Source: Roseiflexus sp. (GTDB lineage: Bacteria > Chloroflexota > Chloroflexia > Chloroflexales > Roseiflexaceae). Taken from it: 64,000 bases of DNA. Shown in pieces: positions 32 through 62,779 of this stretch. Every line of letters begins with the position of its first letter. Positions within the stretch are counted from its first letter, which is position 1. A model generated the notes under the pieces. That model was not told the DNA's origin. It ran no database searches and saw nothing but the letters and a program-made list of their open reading frames with translations. The translations under genes and the position numbers were made by a program. Location: positions 1 to 64,000 of the forward strand of contig JAGHYV010000006.1 of assembly GCA_017743475.1 (NCBI GenBank). The letters are read 5' to 3'.

Positions 32-611
32 CTAAACCTTGATGAAGTCTAATGAAGTATCTCGGTTTTTCGGATAGGCACCGTTCATACAAAATTTGTG
101 TATGTTGCTCCATAATAAAGCGGTATCCGAGATGTCTGCTGGATACACGAGTACACGCACCAAGAACCCATTGGCACCAACCCAGCATTGCCGTTTGCGC
201 CCGTTGACCTTGTTTTCCTCCATCGTCGCCGCGCTCTCCGCCTGATTCGGTTGTTTTGACGGATTGGGAGTCCAGGACGCTGATGGACGGCTCTGGATCG
301 CGATTCAGCGCGTGTCGCGCCAGTTTCCGCGGCGTATCATTCGTTTTGATGAACGTTCCATCACGATTCCATGTGTCAAAATAATAGCGAACGGAGCTCA
401 TCGGCGGAACATCTGTCGGCAGCATGCGCCATTGGCAGGCGGTGCGATGGTTGTCCAGCAGTGCGTTGACGATCGCGCGGCGATCGATGTCGGTCGGGCG
501 ACCGCCGTTTGGCGACGGGGTGACGATCAGCGGCGCGAGAGCGGCTCACGGTTCATCGGTCAGATCGGTTGCATCCTTTGTTGGATTAGGATCGAAGCGC
601 CAGTGCGGCAT
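32..611 (-). pseudogene. IS5-family (DUF4096-type) transposase relic
   Basis: Read on the minus strand, the start MPHWRFDPNPTKDATDL is followed by the usual N-terminal domain of IS5-group transposases and then by the VLDSQSVKTTESGG segment that carries the first catalytic Asp. Two lesions are visible. A TGA replaces the expected Trp codon after LTDEP, about 20 codons in. A frameshift near position 220 moves the reading frame from the SGGERGDDGG segment to the KVNGRKRQCWVGANG segment. The relic then reads to a stop near position 32 and lacks the C-terminal part with the remaining catalytic acidic residues. The element's outer end was not located and may lie left of the window. It cannot encode an active transposase. 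The family call rests on recognised motifs. Confidence 0.85.
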
Positions 612-661
612 CACCAATTGCTCCTCATCAGAACAGCATGGTTGTTCTCATGATACCACAA

Positions 662-1040
662 ATCCGGATTTCTGATCGCCCTCTGACCGCTGCGAAACGA
701 GCAGAGCGTATCAGGTGGACGCGCTTGTCAGGCACAATCATCTATCAAAAACCTGCTCGCTAATACGACATATGCGAAGCATCCCTGGCATGATAACAGC
801 AAAGGAACGCAGATGTTCGACAATAGGTCAGTCAACACTCTCGTCAGCGACAAAGTTCATACAGATGCCTCAGCCAGGGGGTATACGACATCAGCGCGCA
901 GAGCCTCTTTGGCAAAGCTTTTGCATATGCTTGCCTCCACAGATTTGTCGCGCTACGTCCAACGGCTAGCGCTCTACCTGTGCTGCAAGGCGCAACAGAG
1001 CAGCGTCAGGTGCAAGCGCGTGTTGGGCAGCGTTGTAAGG
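662..1040. other. Intergenic stretch with no recognisable gene
   Basis: Short open frames exist on both strands, but none has a convincing start, ribosome site or recognisable motif. No tRNA or repeat was seen. It lies between the transposase relic and the MITE and is probably decayed or non-coding DNA. Confidence 0.5.
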
Positions 1041-2309: not shown

Positions 2310-2493
2310 GGTATGGTTCATCTGCGAAAGGAACATTGTTCTGTTCAGGTTGGGAAGATGTTCTCTAAATGAGAGGGAACATGATCTCCTTGTGACGTGC
2401 ACTGTGCGCATGTCCATCGTTACGCGACTTCACCCACCAACGCGATTGCTGCCCATCATAAACGTGCAGCGCTCCACCAACAAGGCGCTGTCG

Positions 2494-3144
2494 TCACAAC
2501 GCATCGTCTGGCTCAATTCCCAGCGCTCGCAGACGCTCGCGTAGCATGGCGCAGACGCGCTTTCGCCTCCGCCCGTGCTGCTGCTTCTTTCGCCTGCGCT
2601 GCCGCCTGCTTGCCTGCGCTGCCGCCTTCGCTGCCTGCCCCACTACCGTCACATAGTTCCCAATCTCCCACCCCGCCGCGTCGTAGCAGACTAAGTGGTC
2701 GCGCCGTATTCCCGGCCATACGTCCGCAATCACCAGATGCGCTCGCCCATCGGCGTCCGGCACCTGCGACCGGTATGCCCCCACTTCCAGATGATAGTCG
2801 AGCAGCCGCGGCCACCACGCCTCGCCTCGCCCCGTATCGTCTACGACCACGTACTACGCTACTCCTGCTCACGCGTAATGCTCTACCTTGATCACTACGT
2901 CGTTCTCACGCGCATCCAGCAAAACGATGTCGATAATCAGCGCCGGGCGCGCCTGCTCGACCGCCACCTCAAACGTGTTCCAGTTGCGCCGCTTGCGTAC
3001 GCCGGGGATGACCATCACGTCCGGTTCAAGGTGACGGGGATTATCATGAGCAGGACGCGGCACGAGGCGCCACCTGCAGCAGAACGGGTCGGCTTTGGCG
3101 TCGGCGAGGGGAACCGGTTGTGGCGTCGCGGTGGTCATATTCAT
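2494..3144 (-). pseudogene. Decayed Uma2-family (DUF820) endonuclease gene
   Basis: The conserved Uma2 elements read in one frame: EPDVMVIPG (metal-binding Asp), ARPALIIDIV, then VVIKVEHYA. The frame is then broken by TGA and by TAG, four sense codons later, exactly where intact relatives read an RAAGVAEYWVVDP-like segment. The frame reopens with VVVDDTGRGEAWWP. The Ala/Lys/Glu-rich C-terminal helix shows compensating frameshifts, because its best coding frame switches to AAAQAKEAAARAEAKAR and then back. The usual Glu of the PD-(D/E)XK core is also changed (DIV in place of EIV). At least two stops and two indels mean it is not functional. An intact Uma2 gene lies at 60459-61079. Confidence 0.8.
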
Positions 3145-3204
3145 AGTATGAAGTAATATAACATAACGGGTAAGGCTGCACTCCAACTCTATCCTGCAAT
3201 CGCG

Positions 3205-4998
3205 TCACCCCACTATTACTCCCTCGCGGAACTGCAATGCATAGAGGCGCGCATACAATCCCTGCTTCGCCAGTAACTCCTCGTGCGTCCCCTGCTCGAC
3301 AATTCGCCCGTGGTTGAGCACAATGATCCGGTGGGCAATTGCAACAGTGCTGAGACGGTGCGCAATAATGACCGACGTGCGCCCGCGCATCAGGCGCTCA
3401 AATGCTTCCTGAACCAGCGCCTCCGACTCGCTGTCGAGCGAACTGGTTGCTTCGTCGAGCAGCAGAATGCGCGGGTTCTTCAGCATCACACGGGCGATGG
3501 CGATCCGCTGACGCTGTCCGCCGCTCAACTTGATGCCGCGCTCACCGACCAGTGTCTCATATCCACGCGGCATCGCCATGATAAAATCGTGCGCATTTGC
3601 AGCCTTTGCCGCCGCGATGATCTCCTCCTCACTCGCATCCAGTTTCCCATAGACGATATTCTCACGGATCGTTCCGCCGAACAGCATCGTTTCCTGCGGT
3701 ACCAGACCAATCTGCTCTCGCAGACTGCGCTGCGTCACATCGCGCAGATCATACCCGTCGATCAGCACCCGCCCGGATGTCGGGTCGTAGAAGCGCGGGA
3801 TGAGATTGAACAGCGTACTTTTACCTGCCCCGCTCGGACCAACCAGCGCCACGATCTCGCCCGGTCGAATAGCAAGTGTGATGTTATGTAACACTCTCTG
3901 ACCGGTTTCGTACTCAAACGAAACATCATCGAACACGATCTCGCCGTGCACCGGCGGCAGAACACGCGCGTCTGGCGCATCTTTGATCGTCGGTTGTGTA
4001 TCGAGAATCTCGAACACACGCCGCACTGCGCCCACTGCTTCGCGGAACTGACCGTACAACCCGGAGAGTTGCGCCAGGCTGGCGCCGATAGTAATCGCAT
4101 AGATCAAAAAACCGCTGATCGTCGCAAATGACATGCGCCCGGCCAGTACCTCGCTGCCGCTGAACCACAGGATTGCTGCAATGCCGCTGAACCCCAGGAA
4201 CGCCATCAGTCCACCAAATGCCGACCGCAGCAGCGCCAGACGCAGCGCCGCTTTCAGGGTGCGCTGCATTGCACGCTCGTAACGCCCGGTTTCATACGAC
4301 TCACGGACGTAACTTTTGACTACTCGCACTCCCTGTAACCCTTCTTCGACCGCTACCGTCGCATCTGCCAGTTCATCCTGCACCCGTGTGCTGAAGCGTT
4401 GTAGCCAGCGACCAAAGACAGCTGCCACAGTAACGACGCTGATCGCCAGTATGAGCACGAACCCTACCAGGCGCGGATTGAGCAGAAAGACAATGATGAT
4501 CGCACCAAACAGTGCGACAATGCTCGAAAGGAATTGAGTGACATTGTTCGTCAGGATTGAACGCACCTGTGTAACATCGCTGGAGATGCGCGACACGATT
4601 TCGCCAACGCGTCGGCTGGCAAAGAAACTCAATGAGAGCGTGTGCAGGTGGCGGTACAACTGAACCCGCATATCAAGAACGATCCGCTCACCGACAACAT
4701 TCAAGATATACCCCTGAAGAAACGTCAGGAACGCCTGCATGAAAAAGAGTGCGATCAACGCCAGCGTCAGATTCGTCAGCAGCGTCTGGTCACCACGCTG
4801 CAAGACAGCCTCAAGCAATTGCACGATGACCAGCGGAAAACCGAGATTGATTGCGCTTGCCCCCGCAAGCGCCAGCAGCGCACCCAGCATGTGGCGACGA
4901 TACGGTTGCAGATAGTGCAGCAAACGACGCCAGTCGACGGTGCGCACTGGGATAACGTCCACCGTGCGTCGTGAATTGCGAGATTGCCGGTTGAGCAT
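3205..4998 (-). CDS. ABC exporter, fused membrane and ATPase domains (MsbA/MDR-like half-transporter)
   Basis: About 597 residues. The N-terminal half (about residues 30-310) has six hydrophobic segments of the type I exporter fold. The C-terminal half is the ATPase, with Walker A GPSGAGKST, signature LSGGQRQRIAIAR, Walker B ILLLDEATSSLD and switch His IAHRLST. Half-transporters of this kind form homodimers and export lipids, peptides or drugs; the substrate cannot be read from the sequence. I chose the ATG giving MLNRQSRNSRR because GAGAAAG sits about 10 nt upstream. An in-frame ATG 12 codons earlier lacks an obvious ribosome site. The gene stands alone, with the translin gene transcribed divergently. 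Confidence 0.9.
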   Translation of the reverse strand: MLNRQSRNSRRTVDVIPVRTVDWRRLLHYLQPYRRHMLGALLALAGASAINLGFPLVIVQLLEAVLQRGDQTLLTNLTLALIALFFMQAFLTFLQGYILNVVGERIVLDMRVQLYRHLHTLSLSFFASRRVGEIVSRISSDVTQVRSILTNNVTQFLSSIVALFGAIIIVFLLNPRLVGFVLILAISVVTVAAVFGRWLQRFSTRVQDELADATVAVEEGLQGVRVVKSYVRESYETGRYERAMQRTLKAALRLALLRSAFGGLMAFLGFSGIAAILWFSGSEVLAGRMSFATISGFLIYAITIGASLAQLSGLYGQFREAVGAVRRVFEILDTQPTIKDAPDARVLPPVHGEIVFDDVSFEYETGQRVLHNITLAIRPGEIVALVGPSGAGKSTLFNLIPRFYDPTSGRVLIDGYDLRDVTQRSLREQIGLVPQETMLFGGTIRENIVYGKLDASEEEIIAAAKAANAHDFIMAMPRGYETLVGERGIKLSGGQRQRIAIARVMLKNPRILLLDEATSSLDSESEALVQEAFERLMRGRTSVIIAHRLSTVAIAHRIIVLNHGRIVEQGTHEELLAKQGLYARLYALQFREGVIVG

Positions 4999-8127: not shown

Positions 8128-8328
8128 ATGCCAATCCGTGACTGGAGACATGCTGAGGAGCGTGCCGCGCGCCTGATCGATGATCGTCAACATTATGTGG
8201 AAGGGGCGATCATCGATTGGCTGATCCGCACCGGGCAGTGGGATCCGCAGGCAGAGGAAAAGATCCGCGCCTGGCTCGAACGTCAGGCGGTGGAACTGGC
8301 TGAGAAGGAGCGGCAGGCGTCCAATTAA
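8128..8328 (+). CDS. Small acidic helical protein, family not recognised
   Basis: 66 residues, preceded by a very strong ribosome site (AAAGGAGGGGG) six to eight nt before the ATG. The sequence is rich in Glu, Arg and Trp, with two likely helices around AEERAARLIDDR and ERQAVELAEKERQ. No signal peptide or membrane segment is present. It starts 20 nt after the FBP aldolase/phosphatase relic and could once have been co-transcribed with it. Its stop codon overlaps the stop of the convergent nitrilase gene by four bases. The ribosome site and clean frame argue that it is real. Confidence 0.6.
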   Translation: MPIRDWRHAEERAARLIDDRQHYVEGAIIDWLIRTGQWDPQAEEKIRAWLERQAVELAEKERQASN

Positions 8329-9044
8329 GCATCGAAGACCAACGCATCTTCCGTGCCGTGCGGCGACTCGGCCAGAATGTCACCTGTCGGGCTGACAACC
8401 ATTGCGCCGCCGAATGATGCTTCGGGCTGCGTGGGGTCTTCCAGTGCATTGACGATCAACGCCGTCACCTGCAGGGTTCTGACGGCATCCGCATATGCCT
8501 GACGCTCCTCACGCAGCCAGCGCTCCGTGTCGGGGGATGTTCCATCGAAACTGCGCGCCAGCGGAACAACCACGATGTCTGCGCGGGCGCCGAGCCTCAT
8601 CCGAGCACGCTCATCGAACAGATCGCCGCATATCAGGATCGCCAGCCTGCCAGCCGCCGTATCCACGATGTGAATGTCGTCACCGGCGGCAAAGGGAGGC
8701 TGTTCGCTCATTTTGCGCTGTACAAGCGCTATATGACCGGATGGTTCCACCAGGACGGCGGAACTGTACCACCCTTCCGCCGCGCGCTCCAGCATCCCAA
8801 AGCAGATAGCGCAACGATACGCCCTCGCCAGCGCCGCAACTATCGCCGTCGTCTCACCGGGTATCGGCGTGGCGTACTGTTCGAGATCGCGTGGCTCATA
8901 CAGATACCCGGTGAATGCGCATTCCGGCAAACAGATCAGATCAGGAGCATACCGTGCCACTTCTGCCAGTCGTCGCCGGAAATGCTCCACATTCACCGAA
9001 GGATTTCGAGGCTCGATTTTTAGTGGAAGAAGACACGCACGCAT
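8325..9044 (-). CDS. Carbon-nitrogen hydrolase (nitrilase superfamily)
   Basis: 239 residues with the family triad in order: Glu41 in ICLPECAFTGY, Lys111 in ALVQRKMSEQPP and Cys139 in LAILICGDLFDE. Members hydrolyse nitriles, amides or N-carbamoyl compounds through a cysteine thioester; the substrate is not predictable here. The length is slightly short for the superfamily (250-330) but all three residues are present. I chose the ATG giving MRACLLPLKIEP. The frame is open 38 codons further upstream only because the adjacent heptamer repeat reads as a low-complexity Glu/Pro/Arg/Thr/Asn stretch, which is unlikely to be translated. It probably forms an operon with the upstream lectin-fold-like gene. 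Confidence 0.85.
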   Translation of the reverse strand: MRACLLPLKIEPRNPSVNVEHFRRRLAEVARYAPDLICLPECAFTGYLYEPRDLEQYATPIPGETTAIVAALARAYRCAICFGMLERAAEGWYSSAVLVEPSGHIALVQRKMSEQPPFAAGDDIHIVDTAAGRLAILICGDLFDERARMRLGARADIVVVPLARSFDGTSPDTERWLREERQAYADAVRTLQVTALIVNALEDPTQPEASFGGAMVVSPTGDILAESPHGTEDALVFDA

Positions 9045-9149
9045 GGTTCCTGGTTCTTGGTTCTCGGTTCCTGGTTCTCGGTTCCTGGTTCCTGGTTCTC
9101 GGTTCTCAGTTCTTGGTTCTTGATTCTCGGTTCTCGGTTCTTGGTTATC
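9045..9149. repeat. Degenerate tandem heptamer repeat, consensus GGTTCTC, about 15 copies
   Basis: Fifteen successive 7-nt units vary only at a few places (GGTTCCT, GGTTCTT, GGTTCTC, AGTTCTT, GATTCTC, GGTTATC). They fill the whole space between the nitrilase start codon and the stop of the gene upstream of it. A five-copy array of the same unit lies just before argH at 61363-61397. The units are contiguous with no spacers, so this is not a CRISPR array. Confidence 0.9.
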
Positions 9150-9915
9150 ACTTCTCAATCCTCACCTGCGCAATCTCCATCCACTGCGCCCCTGGTACGT
9201 CGAGCAAACCCCAACCGAACTCACCGCGCGGCGTGGCGATCAGCCACTGGTTATCGACCCATGCGACGAAGCCAAGCCGACCGCGCGGCGCGCAGTCCGT
9301 TTCGTGAACGACCTGACCATCGATCAAAAAACGCGCGCCGCCGGTCAACCATTCGAGGGTGAAGGTGCGGAATGTGTCGTCCGGCGGCGGGATGAGCGCC
9401 TCGCTGACCGAAAGCGCCCGCTGAACGCGATGCCAGAGGCACTCGTAGATGCCGGGCAGACGATTTGCCAGCATAACCAGCGGCGCAACCGGCGCCCAGC
9501 GCAACGCCCGGCGCGTAGTTGCGTCGATTGTCGCAACTTTCCATCCAAAACCTGGAACGCCATATGCCAGCGGCATATTGGCAGGCGGCGAAGCATAGAA
9601 GAACCAGATCGCCGCAGGCAATACCGGCAACACTTTCCCGACCGGCGAAATGGGCGCATTCCAGAAGCCGAACCCCGCTGTTCCCCGAACAGACGTTCCC
9701 ATCCGCGCGACCACCGTCAGGCGCAGCGGCGCGCGCCAGGGGAAGCGATGGCGCGGCAGACCGGTGTAATCGTCGATCTGGGCATTGGCATAGCGCCGCG
9801 CCGTCGCGCCGGCGACCACAAAACGCATACCCTCAGGAGTCAGAACTAGGCGACCGCCGCCGGTCTGCGTGAGTCGCCAGCCGGATTGTGGACGGGGGCG
9901 AAATGTTTCGTTCAT
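9148..9915 (-). CDS. Uncharacterised protein, possibly concanavalin-A/lectin-like beta-sandwich
   Basis: 255 residues, no signal peptide. The middle and C-terminal parts (FRTFTLEWLTGGARFLIDGQVVHET, then GRLGFVAWVDNQW) resemble the jelly-roll of glycoside hydrolase family 16 and related laminin-G/lectin folds, in which a strand like LEWL precedes a short FxIDGxxV strand. No catalytic E-x-D-x-E motif was found, so an enzymatic role is not supported. A segment WFFYASPPANMPLAYG may be a hydrophobic loop. It ends at the heptamer repeat and lies upstream of the nitrilase in the same direction. The function is unknown; the fold call is tentative. Confidence 0.65.
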   Translation of the reverse strand: MNETFRPRPQSGWRLTQTGGGRLVLTPEGMRFVVAGATARRYANAQIDDYTGLPRHRFPWRAPLRLTVVARMGTSVRGTAGFGFWNAPISPVGKVLPVLPAAIWFFYASPPANMPLAYGVPGFGWKVATIDATTRRALRWAPVAPLVMLANRLPGIYECLWHRVQRALSVSEALIPPPDDTFRTFTLEWLTGGARFLIDGQVVHETDCAPRGRLGFVAWVDNQWLIATPRGEFGWGLLDVPGAQWMEIAQVRIEK

Positions 9916-61079: not shown

Positions 61080-61362
61080 CTTGCACTCTCGAATGCGGAT
61101 GCAACTCCTCCTGCTGATGATATACGCATTGTACCACAGAGCAAGGGTCAGGGGTGAGGGCGCTGGTCGAACATCAGGGGTTCTGCCTCTTTGTCAAGCC
61201 ATGTATCCTGATGCGGCACACCTTACAAAGAGATGGGCGCATCTGTGCCGTCGGAATAACATTCACTGAAAACCGCACCTTTTGCCGCTTATCGCCCGCT
61301 GCGCACCTAATCTTTATTTCGTGTACCATGACCGTGTCTTTCATCTGTGGCGCCCGTCCAGG

Positions 61363-61397
61363 AGTTCTCAGTTCTTGGTTCTCAGTTCTCGGTTCTC
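61363..61397. repeat. Five-copy heptamer array before argH
   Basis: AGTTCTC, AGTTCTT, GGTTCTC, AGTTCTC, GGTTCTC in direct tandem, the same unit as at 9045-9149. It ends four nt before the argH ribosome site AGGAGC. Confidence 0.85.
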
Positions 61398-61411
61398 ACA
61401 AGGAGCAAAGC

Positions 61412-62779
61412 ATGTGGGGCGGTCGCTTTAGCGAACAGGTAGACGCGCTCATGGCGCAGTTCAACAATTCGTTTTCGTTTGATCGGCGTATGTGGCGCGA
61501 AGACATTCGCGGCAGCATTGCCTGGGCGCGTCAACTCGCCAGGGTCGGCATCATCTCAGCAGAAGAACGCGATACGCTGGTTGATGGTCTCAATATGGTC
61601 TATGCCGAGTTTGCCGAAGGACGGTTCGAGGTGCGTGAAACTGATGAGGACATTCACACCGCAGTCGAACGTCGCCTGGGTGAACTGGTCGGTACGGTTG
61701 CCGGAAAATTGCACACTGGTCGTAGCCGAAACGACCAGGTGGCGACTGATGTGCGTCTCTGGACGCTGGGGGCGATCCGGCGCATCGACGATGGGCTACG
61801 CGCCCTGCAAAAAGCATTGCTGGCACAAGCCGAAACCGCTGGCACCGCGCTTATGCCGGGATATACCCATTTGCAGCGCGCCCAGCCAGTGCTGCTGGCA
61901 CACTGGTTGCTGGCGCACTTCTGGCCCCTGCAACGTGATCGTGAGCGTCTGGCGGACTGCGCAAAGCGAACGGCAACGCTTCCGCTAGGATCCGGCGCGA
62001 TTGCCGGAACGCCGCTGATGGTGGATCGCACGGCGCTGGCTGCTGAACTTGGTATGACCACTATTTCCCCCAACAGTATCGATGCAGTCAGTGATCGAGA
62101 TTTCATTGCAGAGTTTCTATTTTGCGCAGCGTTGATAGGGACGCACCTGAGCCGTCTGGCAGAAGACATGATTATCTACAGTAGCGCTGAGTTTGGTTTT
62201 GTGACTCTTGCCGACGCCTATAGCACCGGTTCAAGTCTGATGCCGCAGAAGAAAAACCCTGACTCGTTCGAACTGCTGCGCGGCAAGGCGGGTCGTTTGA
62301 CAGGCGATCTGATTGCAGTGCTGACTGTGCTGAAAGGTCTACCCTCCGCCTATGACAAAGATCTGCAGGAAGACAAAGAACCTTTATTTGATGCAGCCGA
62401 CACCCTCGAACTCGCGTTGCCGGTCGCGGCAGGCGCAGTAGCAACAGCGCGCTTTCATCCGGATCGCATGCGCGCAGCGCTCGACGATGCCATGCTGGCG
62501 ACCGATCTTGCCGATTATCTAGTTGCGCGCGGCGTGCCATTCCGCGAAGCACACTATATTACTGGCAGGCTGGTGCGTGAAGCGGAGCAACGGGGTGTTG
62601 CGCTCTCAGCGCTGCCGCTCGAGGTCTTTCTCGCGGCGCACCCGGTATGTGAACCCGATGTACTTCAGGTGTTCGACTTCGACCGTTCAGTGGCAACGCG
62701 GCGCGTACCGGGCGCAACTGCGCCTGAAGCGGTGGATGAGCAGATCGCACAGGCGCGGCGATGTGTTGAGGAGCGATGA
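61412..62779 (+). CDS. argH: Argininosuccinate lyase
   Basis: 455 residues. MWGGRFSEQVDALMAQFNNSF opens the family; TAVERRLGELVGTVAGKLHTGRSRNDQVATD, GYTHLQRAQPVLLAHW and the lyase signature GSSLMPQKKNPDSFELLRGK are intact. It splits argininosuccinate to arginine and fumarate. The ATG is set by AGGAGC ten nt upstream; the frame further upstream is spurious. A heptamer repeat lies directly before the ribosome site. Confidence 0.97.
   Translation: MWGGRFSEQVDALMAQFNNSFSFDRRMWREDIRGSIAWARQLARVGIISAEERDTLVDGLNMVYAEFAEGRFEVRETDEDIHTAVERRLGELVGTVAGKLHTGRSRNDQVATDVRLWTLGAIRRIDDGLRALQKALLAQAETAGTALMPGYTHLQRAQPVLLAHWLLAHFWPLQRDRERLADCAKRTATLPLGSGAIAGTPLMVDRTALAAELGMTTISPNSIDAVSDRDFIAEFLFCAALIGTHLSRLAEDMIIYSSAEFGFVTLADAYSTGSSLMPQKKNPDSFELLRGKAGRLTGDLIAVLTVLKGLPSAYDKDLQEDKEPLFDAADTLELALPVAAGAVATARFHPDRMRAALDDAMLATDLADYLVARGVPFREAHYITGRLVREAEQRGVALSALPLEVFLAAHPVCEPDVLQVFDFDRSVATRRVPGATAPEAVDEQIAQARRCVEER

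Follow-up and report, generated by a model that had tools for sequence, protein, structure and literature searches.

The window analysed here, a 64,000-nt stretch of a Roseiflexus draft genome (G000, 4.97 Mb), carries on its minus strand a gene of 255 aa (9148..9915), for which profile searches of Pfam and NCBIfam gave no match, followed by a gene for a carbon-nitrogen hydrolase of the nitrilase superfamily (8325..9044, 239 aa; PF00795, E 1.8e-25), for which no NCBIfam model scored over its cut-off. A degenerate heptamer array (9045..9148, plus strand) begins at the TGA stop codon of the first of these genes (9148–9150, minus strand) and occupies the whole 103-bp gap down to the nitrilase ATG (9042–9044); the order on the minus strand is 255-aa gene, TGA, array and nitrilase ATG. 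The unit is GGTTCTN on the plus strand, and both neighbouring genes have it as NAGAACC on their coding strand. TRF called the array at 9044–9146 with a period of 7, 14.7 copies, 82% matches and a score of 122, and also with a period of 21 (score 141), in agreement with the roughly 15 units counted before the nitrilase in a preliminary description of this DNA. Seven exact three-unit matches lie inside the array. Across the whole window, a two-unit heptamer pattern with up to two mismatches matched 22 times where 3.26 matches were expected, a number reached by none of 100 shuffles; 14 of the 22 matches are this array and four are a second one. A known RNA family at the nitrilase site was rejected, as Rfam gave no matches at E ≤ 1 in 8600–9600.

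The second array (61363..61398, plus strand) belongs to the same family and lies above argH (61412..62779, plus strand; argininosuccinate lyase, 455 aa; TIGR00838, 594 bits against a cut-off of 279.5). TRF gave it a period of 7, 5.1 copies and 79% matches, which bears out the five units previously described before the argH ribosome site. It ends next to the Shine-Dalgarno sequence of argH, AAGGAG (61400..61405, plus strand), which is conserved beside the array. GTTCTC-type units, about three to nine of them, occurred above argH in all five genomes compared (our own, the complete relative G002, and G003, G004 and G005), all in one orientation and ending beside the Shine-Dalgarno sequence; G001 was left out because its locus stops short of the gene start. 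As the array stands above a separate Shine-Dalgarno sequence in all five genomes, no reading frame depends on it. Further up, our genome, G002 and G003 have in common the stretch TTTCGTGTACYATG, which appears from its sequence to resemble a −10 region and holds the putative −10-like element TACCAT (61324..61329, plus strand). In G002 the array extends to this stretch, while our genome and G003 have other sequence there. With a −10-like stretch above it, the argH array would fall in the leader, and a place within the 5′ leader is probable. Further upstream of argH, G005 has a GGGGTTA-type heptamer array (L046), with the unit length of plant telomere repeats.

The preliminary description placed the repeat directly before translation starts. 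This is correct at both sites, but the nitrilase array fills the entire gap from the upstream stop, and in the three relatives compared at this gap (G002, G004 and G005) the heptamers adjoin the stop-codon side. In G004 and G005, about four heptamers directly follow the upstream stop and are succeeded by other sequence before the nitrilase. In G002, the gap contains GAGAAGT-type units interrupted by an insert of about 0.9 kb. This insert (locus L037, about 2456–3370) is transposase-like by eye, and part of it matches window positions 123–687 at 85%. The nitrilase match and the upstream gene of G003 lie on different contigs.

Similar arrays are found throughout the genome. A three-unit pattern with at most one mismatch matched 355 times in our genome, compared with 51 times for a reversed control pattern. 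The strict four-unit pattern had matches in 19 of 60 relatives, including all five congeners, with a single strict match in G003 and 75 four-unit matches in G004. A survey was made of 1.6 Mb of G002 (one contig, 5,801,598 bases), in two halves of 0.8 Mb, with genes called by a simple custom gene finder. Gene starts were assigned by a simple script and stops are firmer, each species is represented by one genome, and the array detector needs about four units, so that shorter arrays escape it. Period 7 was nearly the sole short tandem period between genes: coverage at lag 7 amounted to 7489 bp over 758 gaps, the next largest value at lags 4–13 was 135 bp, and 20 mononucleotide shuffles gave 0. 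This coverage was mostly intergenic, with six genic arrays among 126 (1/64 and 5/62 in the two halves), and a strict array was carried by 65 of the 758 gaps. In four 400-kb blocks of G002, intergenic coverage also appeared at lags of 15, 22 and 30, perhaps from 7+8 composite units or other repeats.

The units are of several kinds. The 114 G002 arrays with clear strand bias comprised 45 GTTGAAG-like, 38 GAGAACY, 22 GATAGCC and 9 other arrays; the genus has at least three unit families, and some arrays mix families in register (GATAGCC with GAGAACT). Median length was 69 bp for anchored arrays (n = 50) and 51.5 bp for unanchored ones (n = 64). GTTGAAG units were present in 25 of 44 stop-anchored and in none of 16 start-anchored arrays of G002, and this restriction to stops suggests some constraint. 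TGA was the stop codon of 28 of the 38 G002 genes with an abutting array, compared with 621 of 1161 genes overall. The stop codon matched the array consensus in register in 9 of the 38 arrays anchored at stops, where 2.9 were expected; it is thus itself part of an array unit in a subset of these arrays. No description of heptamer arrays in Roseiflexus was found in the open-licence literature. In the part of PMC4060949 available, Roseiflexus is mentioned once, for oligopurine runs.

Arrays near genes follow an orientation rule: the purine-rich strand runs 5′ to 3′ away from the abutted gene edge, whatever the unit or the gene direction. The rule was stated from the first 0.8 Mb of G002 before the second 0.8 Mb was analysed. 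Within 50 bp of a gene, it was kept in the discovery half by 18 of 22 arrays at stops and 6 of 10 at starts, and in the fresh half, with three ambiguous arrays set aside, by 23 of 25 and 9 of 9, respectively (pooled, 32 of 34, p = 7e-8). For our own genome, 41 sequences including the window contained 63 arrays, from which two genic arrays and 19 at locus edges were excluded; within the same distance, all 13 arrays at starts kept the rule, as did 9 of 13 at stops, ambiguous arrays again being set aside; the four misses at stops span entire short gaps, where the nearest edge is therefore arbitrary. Where a G002 gap left at least 150 bp free, 28 of 92 arrays had their purine-5′ end no more than 10 bp from a gene, and none of the 92 had its purine-3′ end so close (2.1 expected for each end). 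All 11 G002 gaps with both polarities had the purine array first and the pyrimidine array after it. Together, the counts at stops and starts, the end distances and the mixed gaps indicate that the arrays read outward from genes, at starts and stops alike and whichever way the gene points.

The rule extends beyond the genus, within limits. Seven other genomes of the order supplied loci with 62 arrays, none of those in G031 being near a gene; the rule was followed by 18 of 19 arrays at stops and the single one at a start within 20 bp, and by 18 of 21 and 3 of 3, respectively, within 50 bp. One genome of the same order, G057, had GGGGATC units of the type known from Xanthomonas and Nostoc, in the published orientation. 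A scan of GTDB returned at least 115 stretches with a four-unit GGTTCTY array; among the matches listed were Verrucomicrobia, Pirellulaceae, Bacteroidetes, Proteobacteria, Actinomadura, Paenibacillus, cyanobacteria and others. Orientation was scored, among the matches listed, from 131 arrays of at least three GGTTCY units, of which 38 at locus edges and 15 genic ones were left out; gene calls across phyla were crude and came from training on GC-binned loci. Within 50 bp of a gene, and again among the matches listed, 9 of 12 arrays in records with Chloroflexota-like names were oriented outward (a group that includes five loci titled bare 'bacterium' or similar, sorted by hand), as against 10 of 31 in other records. 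The latter count did not bear out a universal polarity rule. Following the rule is not intrinsic to the heptamer.

To follow the arrays between species, 39 arrays of our genome were put to pairing, and 14 rows (13 distinct) were paired with G002 by the gene-side flank. The pairing presupposes orientation and so adds no evidence for polarity. Detected length differed by at least one unit in 12 of the 13 orthologous pairs, and both copies lay within 20 bp of the gene in 10 of 13. The anchored edge stays put while copy number and unit makeup vary between species, and unit type can be replaced wholesale, as with GAGAACC and GAGAAGT at the nitrilase or GATAGGY and GATAGCC at L184. Gene-side units were more alike than far-side units in 8 pairs, with the reverse in 5 (duplicate row removed). 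The preliminary description had set constant copy number and random placement of other arrays against its proposal; between species neither was found, as copy number varies and placement relative to genes is far from random. Several contigs of G009 and G008 (L320, L322, L326 and L328) end inside or beside heptamer arrays. Assemblies thus break there, and unit counts from drafts are unsafe.

On balance, we think it probable that the nitrilase array is one of many degenerate heptamer simple-sequence arrays spread over the intergenic DNA of Roseiflexus, changing by gain and loss of 7 bases. Replication slippage or unequal exchange would add or remove units 7 bases at a time, with local homogenisation of the units, and coding sequence would bound the spread of the arrays. 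Under this reading, the array at 9045–9148 would be a fast-changing and probably transcribed spacer that separates two genes read in the same direction. Leader or trailer effects may come on top of the gain and loss at tolerated places bounded by genes. Slippage alone leaves polarity unaccounted for. A plain mutational process does not predict polarity as strict as that of the fresh-half arrays and the mixed gaps, nor an array kept at argH in five of five genomes.

It is possible, though rather unlikely, that the arrays are functional leader and trailer elements in which selection keeps composition and place and not the exact units. Above starts, pyrimidine-rich heptamers would enhance translation as unstructured elements, for instance through ribosomal protein S1; after stops, purine-rich heptamers would bear stop codons in several frames or block Rho loading. 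The persistence of the argH array beside its Shine-Dalgarno sequence argues for the former, as does the pyrimidine-rich sense strand of start-anchored arrays (all 9 in the fresh half and all 13 in our own loci, within 50 bp), yet many start-side arrays adjoin a start codon with no visible Shine-Dalgarno sequence. For trailers, the purine-rich strands of GTTGAAG, GATAGCC and GAGAACT carry TGA or TAG, GTTGAAG is confined to stops, and TGA is over-represented at array-abutted genes. Most units of our nitrilase array, however, lack a stop, and the array has one frame that stays open from end to end. Many gaps lack an array altogether, strict arrays being present in fewer than a tenth of those surveyed, and a role at the transcript level has no obvious need of mirror polarity at both gene ends.

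At least six different heptamers in the order share the outward purine-rich polarity. Neither a simple transcript element nor plain slippage accounts for such mirror symmetry, which would point to an activity at the DNA level. We accordingly also considered a directional, sequence-independent process that deposits or retains heptamers at the borders of genes through an unknown DNA-level activity, such as extension of 3′ ends at breaks or a factor whose pitch is 7 bases; we regard it as improbable.

Templated or end-directed addition, in which a telomerase- or DRT10-like activity adds heptamers to 3′ ends at intergenic breaks, is more doubtful still and would appear very improbable. The polarity fits the extension of free 3′ ends on both sides of a break, as do the facing arrays of the 11 mixed gaps, and the mixing of different heptamers in register is consistent with it. 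DRT10 makes tandem-repeat DNA from an RNA template, as protein-primed cDNA with 9-nt units in Eco3 according to the available part of the report (PMC12632851). Roseiflexus arrays resemble such products in being short tandem-repeat DNA with a polarity like that of 3′-end extension, but no such enzyme was found with them in a PF00078 search. That search found one reverse transcriptase in each of five of the six genus genomes and none in G004, despite the 75 four-unit matches there, so array-bearing genomes do not all have one, and the sole PF00078 reverse transcriptase of our genome adjoins cas1. As judged by PF00078, a reverse transcriptase as the driver was not borne out. With gene-side and far-side units about equally conserved, outward growth was not seen. 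On contig 44 of our genome (L292, 152–2742), where the RVT_1 gene adjoins cas1, the frames between the two resemble read-through of heptamer arrays.

The preliminary description also proposed that the array extends the nitrilase open frame, such that changes in copy number could shift the frame and produce phase variation. The extension itself was confirmed: one frame is open through the entire array, for 39 codons to a stop and 38 from a TTG, and an alternative 277-aa reading from this TTG enters the array. The Met start and the length of 239 aa, however, were identical in four of four species, while the open frame above the ATG was 39 codons in our genome, 4 in G002, 8 in G004 and 27 in G005. 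The N-terminal extension is therefore not conserved, and units gained or lost above the ATG leave the nitrilase frame unchanged. We conclude that the array at 9045–9148 does not set the reading frame of the nitrilase and at most alters the length and composition of the spacer. On–off switching of the extension by copy-number changes is thus hardly credible. In its favour are a period of 7 bases, which 3 does not divide, copy numbers that vary between species and a frame open across the array. Against it, a change of units shifts neither the frame nor the start of the nitrilase product, the G002 gap holds an insert of about 0.9 kb, the arrays are nearly all intergenic, and phase variation was judged unlikely by Rehm et al. 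for their heptamers too, in the part of that article available (PMC4692102). For the nitrilase, it was rejected on the conserved start.

The array at 9045–9148 belongs to a known class of fast-changing intergenic heptamer repeats. Short tandemly repeated repetitive (STRR) heptamers are known from heterocystous cyanobacteria, and like them the arrays of one Roseiflexus genome comprise several different heptamers; three are described for Calothrix (PMC4692102). In the available sections of the same article, Rehm et al. (2015) describe intergenic heptamers of Xanthomonas and Nostoc, GGGNATC and GGGGA(C/T)T, which lie near the 5′ neighbouring ORF whatever the ORF orientation, a class that also favours four units; quadruplexes are discussed there, and no role was found for the G-rich heptamers. 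Roseiflexus arrays likewise have period 7, are dispersed and in intergenic excess, vary in unit number between relatives, and obey the same orientation-independent polarity rule, lying closer to the 5′ neighbouring ORF whatever its orientation. They differ in that the main units (GAGAACY, GATAGCC and GTTGAAG) lack the GGG runs that a G-quadruplex class would require, and in that several unrelated families share the rule within one genome. A second comparison is with the TAACTGA direct repeats of Beggiatoaceae, cyanobacteria and Bacteroidetes, for which the accessible text of MacGregor (2015; PMC4679880) proposes a translational regulator and describes mixing with other heptamers and 7-nt indels between strains. 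These too are intergenic heptamers, often just above start codons and in scattered phyla, but the Roseiflexus unit and its favoured location are different.

The kind is thus already known, and the Roseiflexus arrays are new members of it, most of them without G-runs. Because the main families keep their polarity without GGG runs, a cause other than a G-quadruplex is needed, and the polarity shared by unrelated, mostly G-run-free heptamers makes the G-quadruplex unlikely as a common cause. For annotation, the TTG-started nitrilase of 277 aa and similar ENREPRT-like protein starts should be taken as read-through of arrays. The polarity of the arrays at gene edges is a sharp rule that every mechanism must satisfy.
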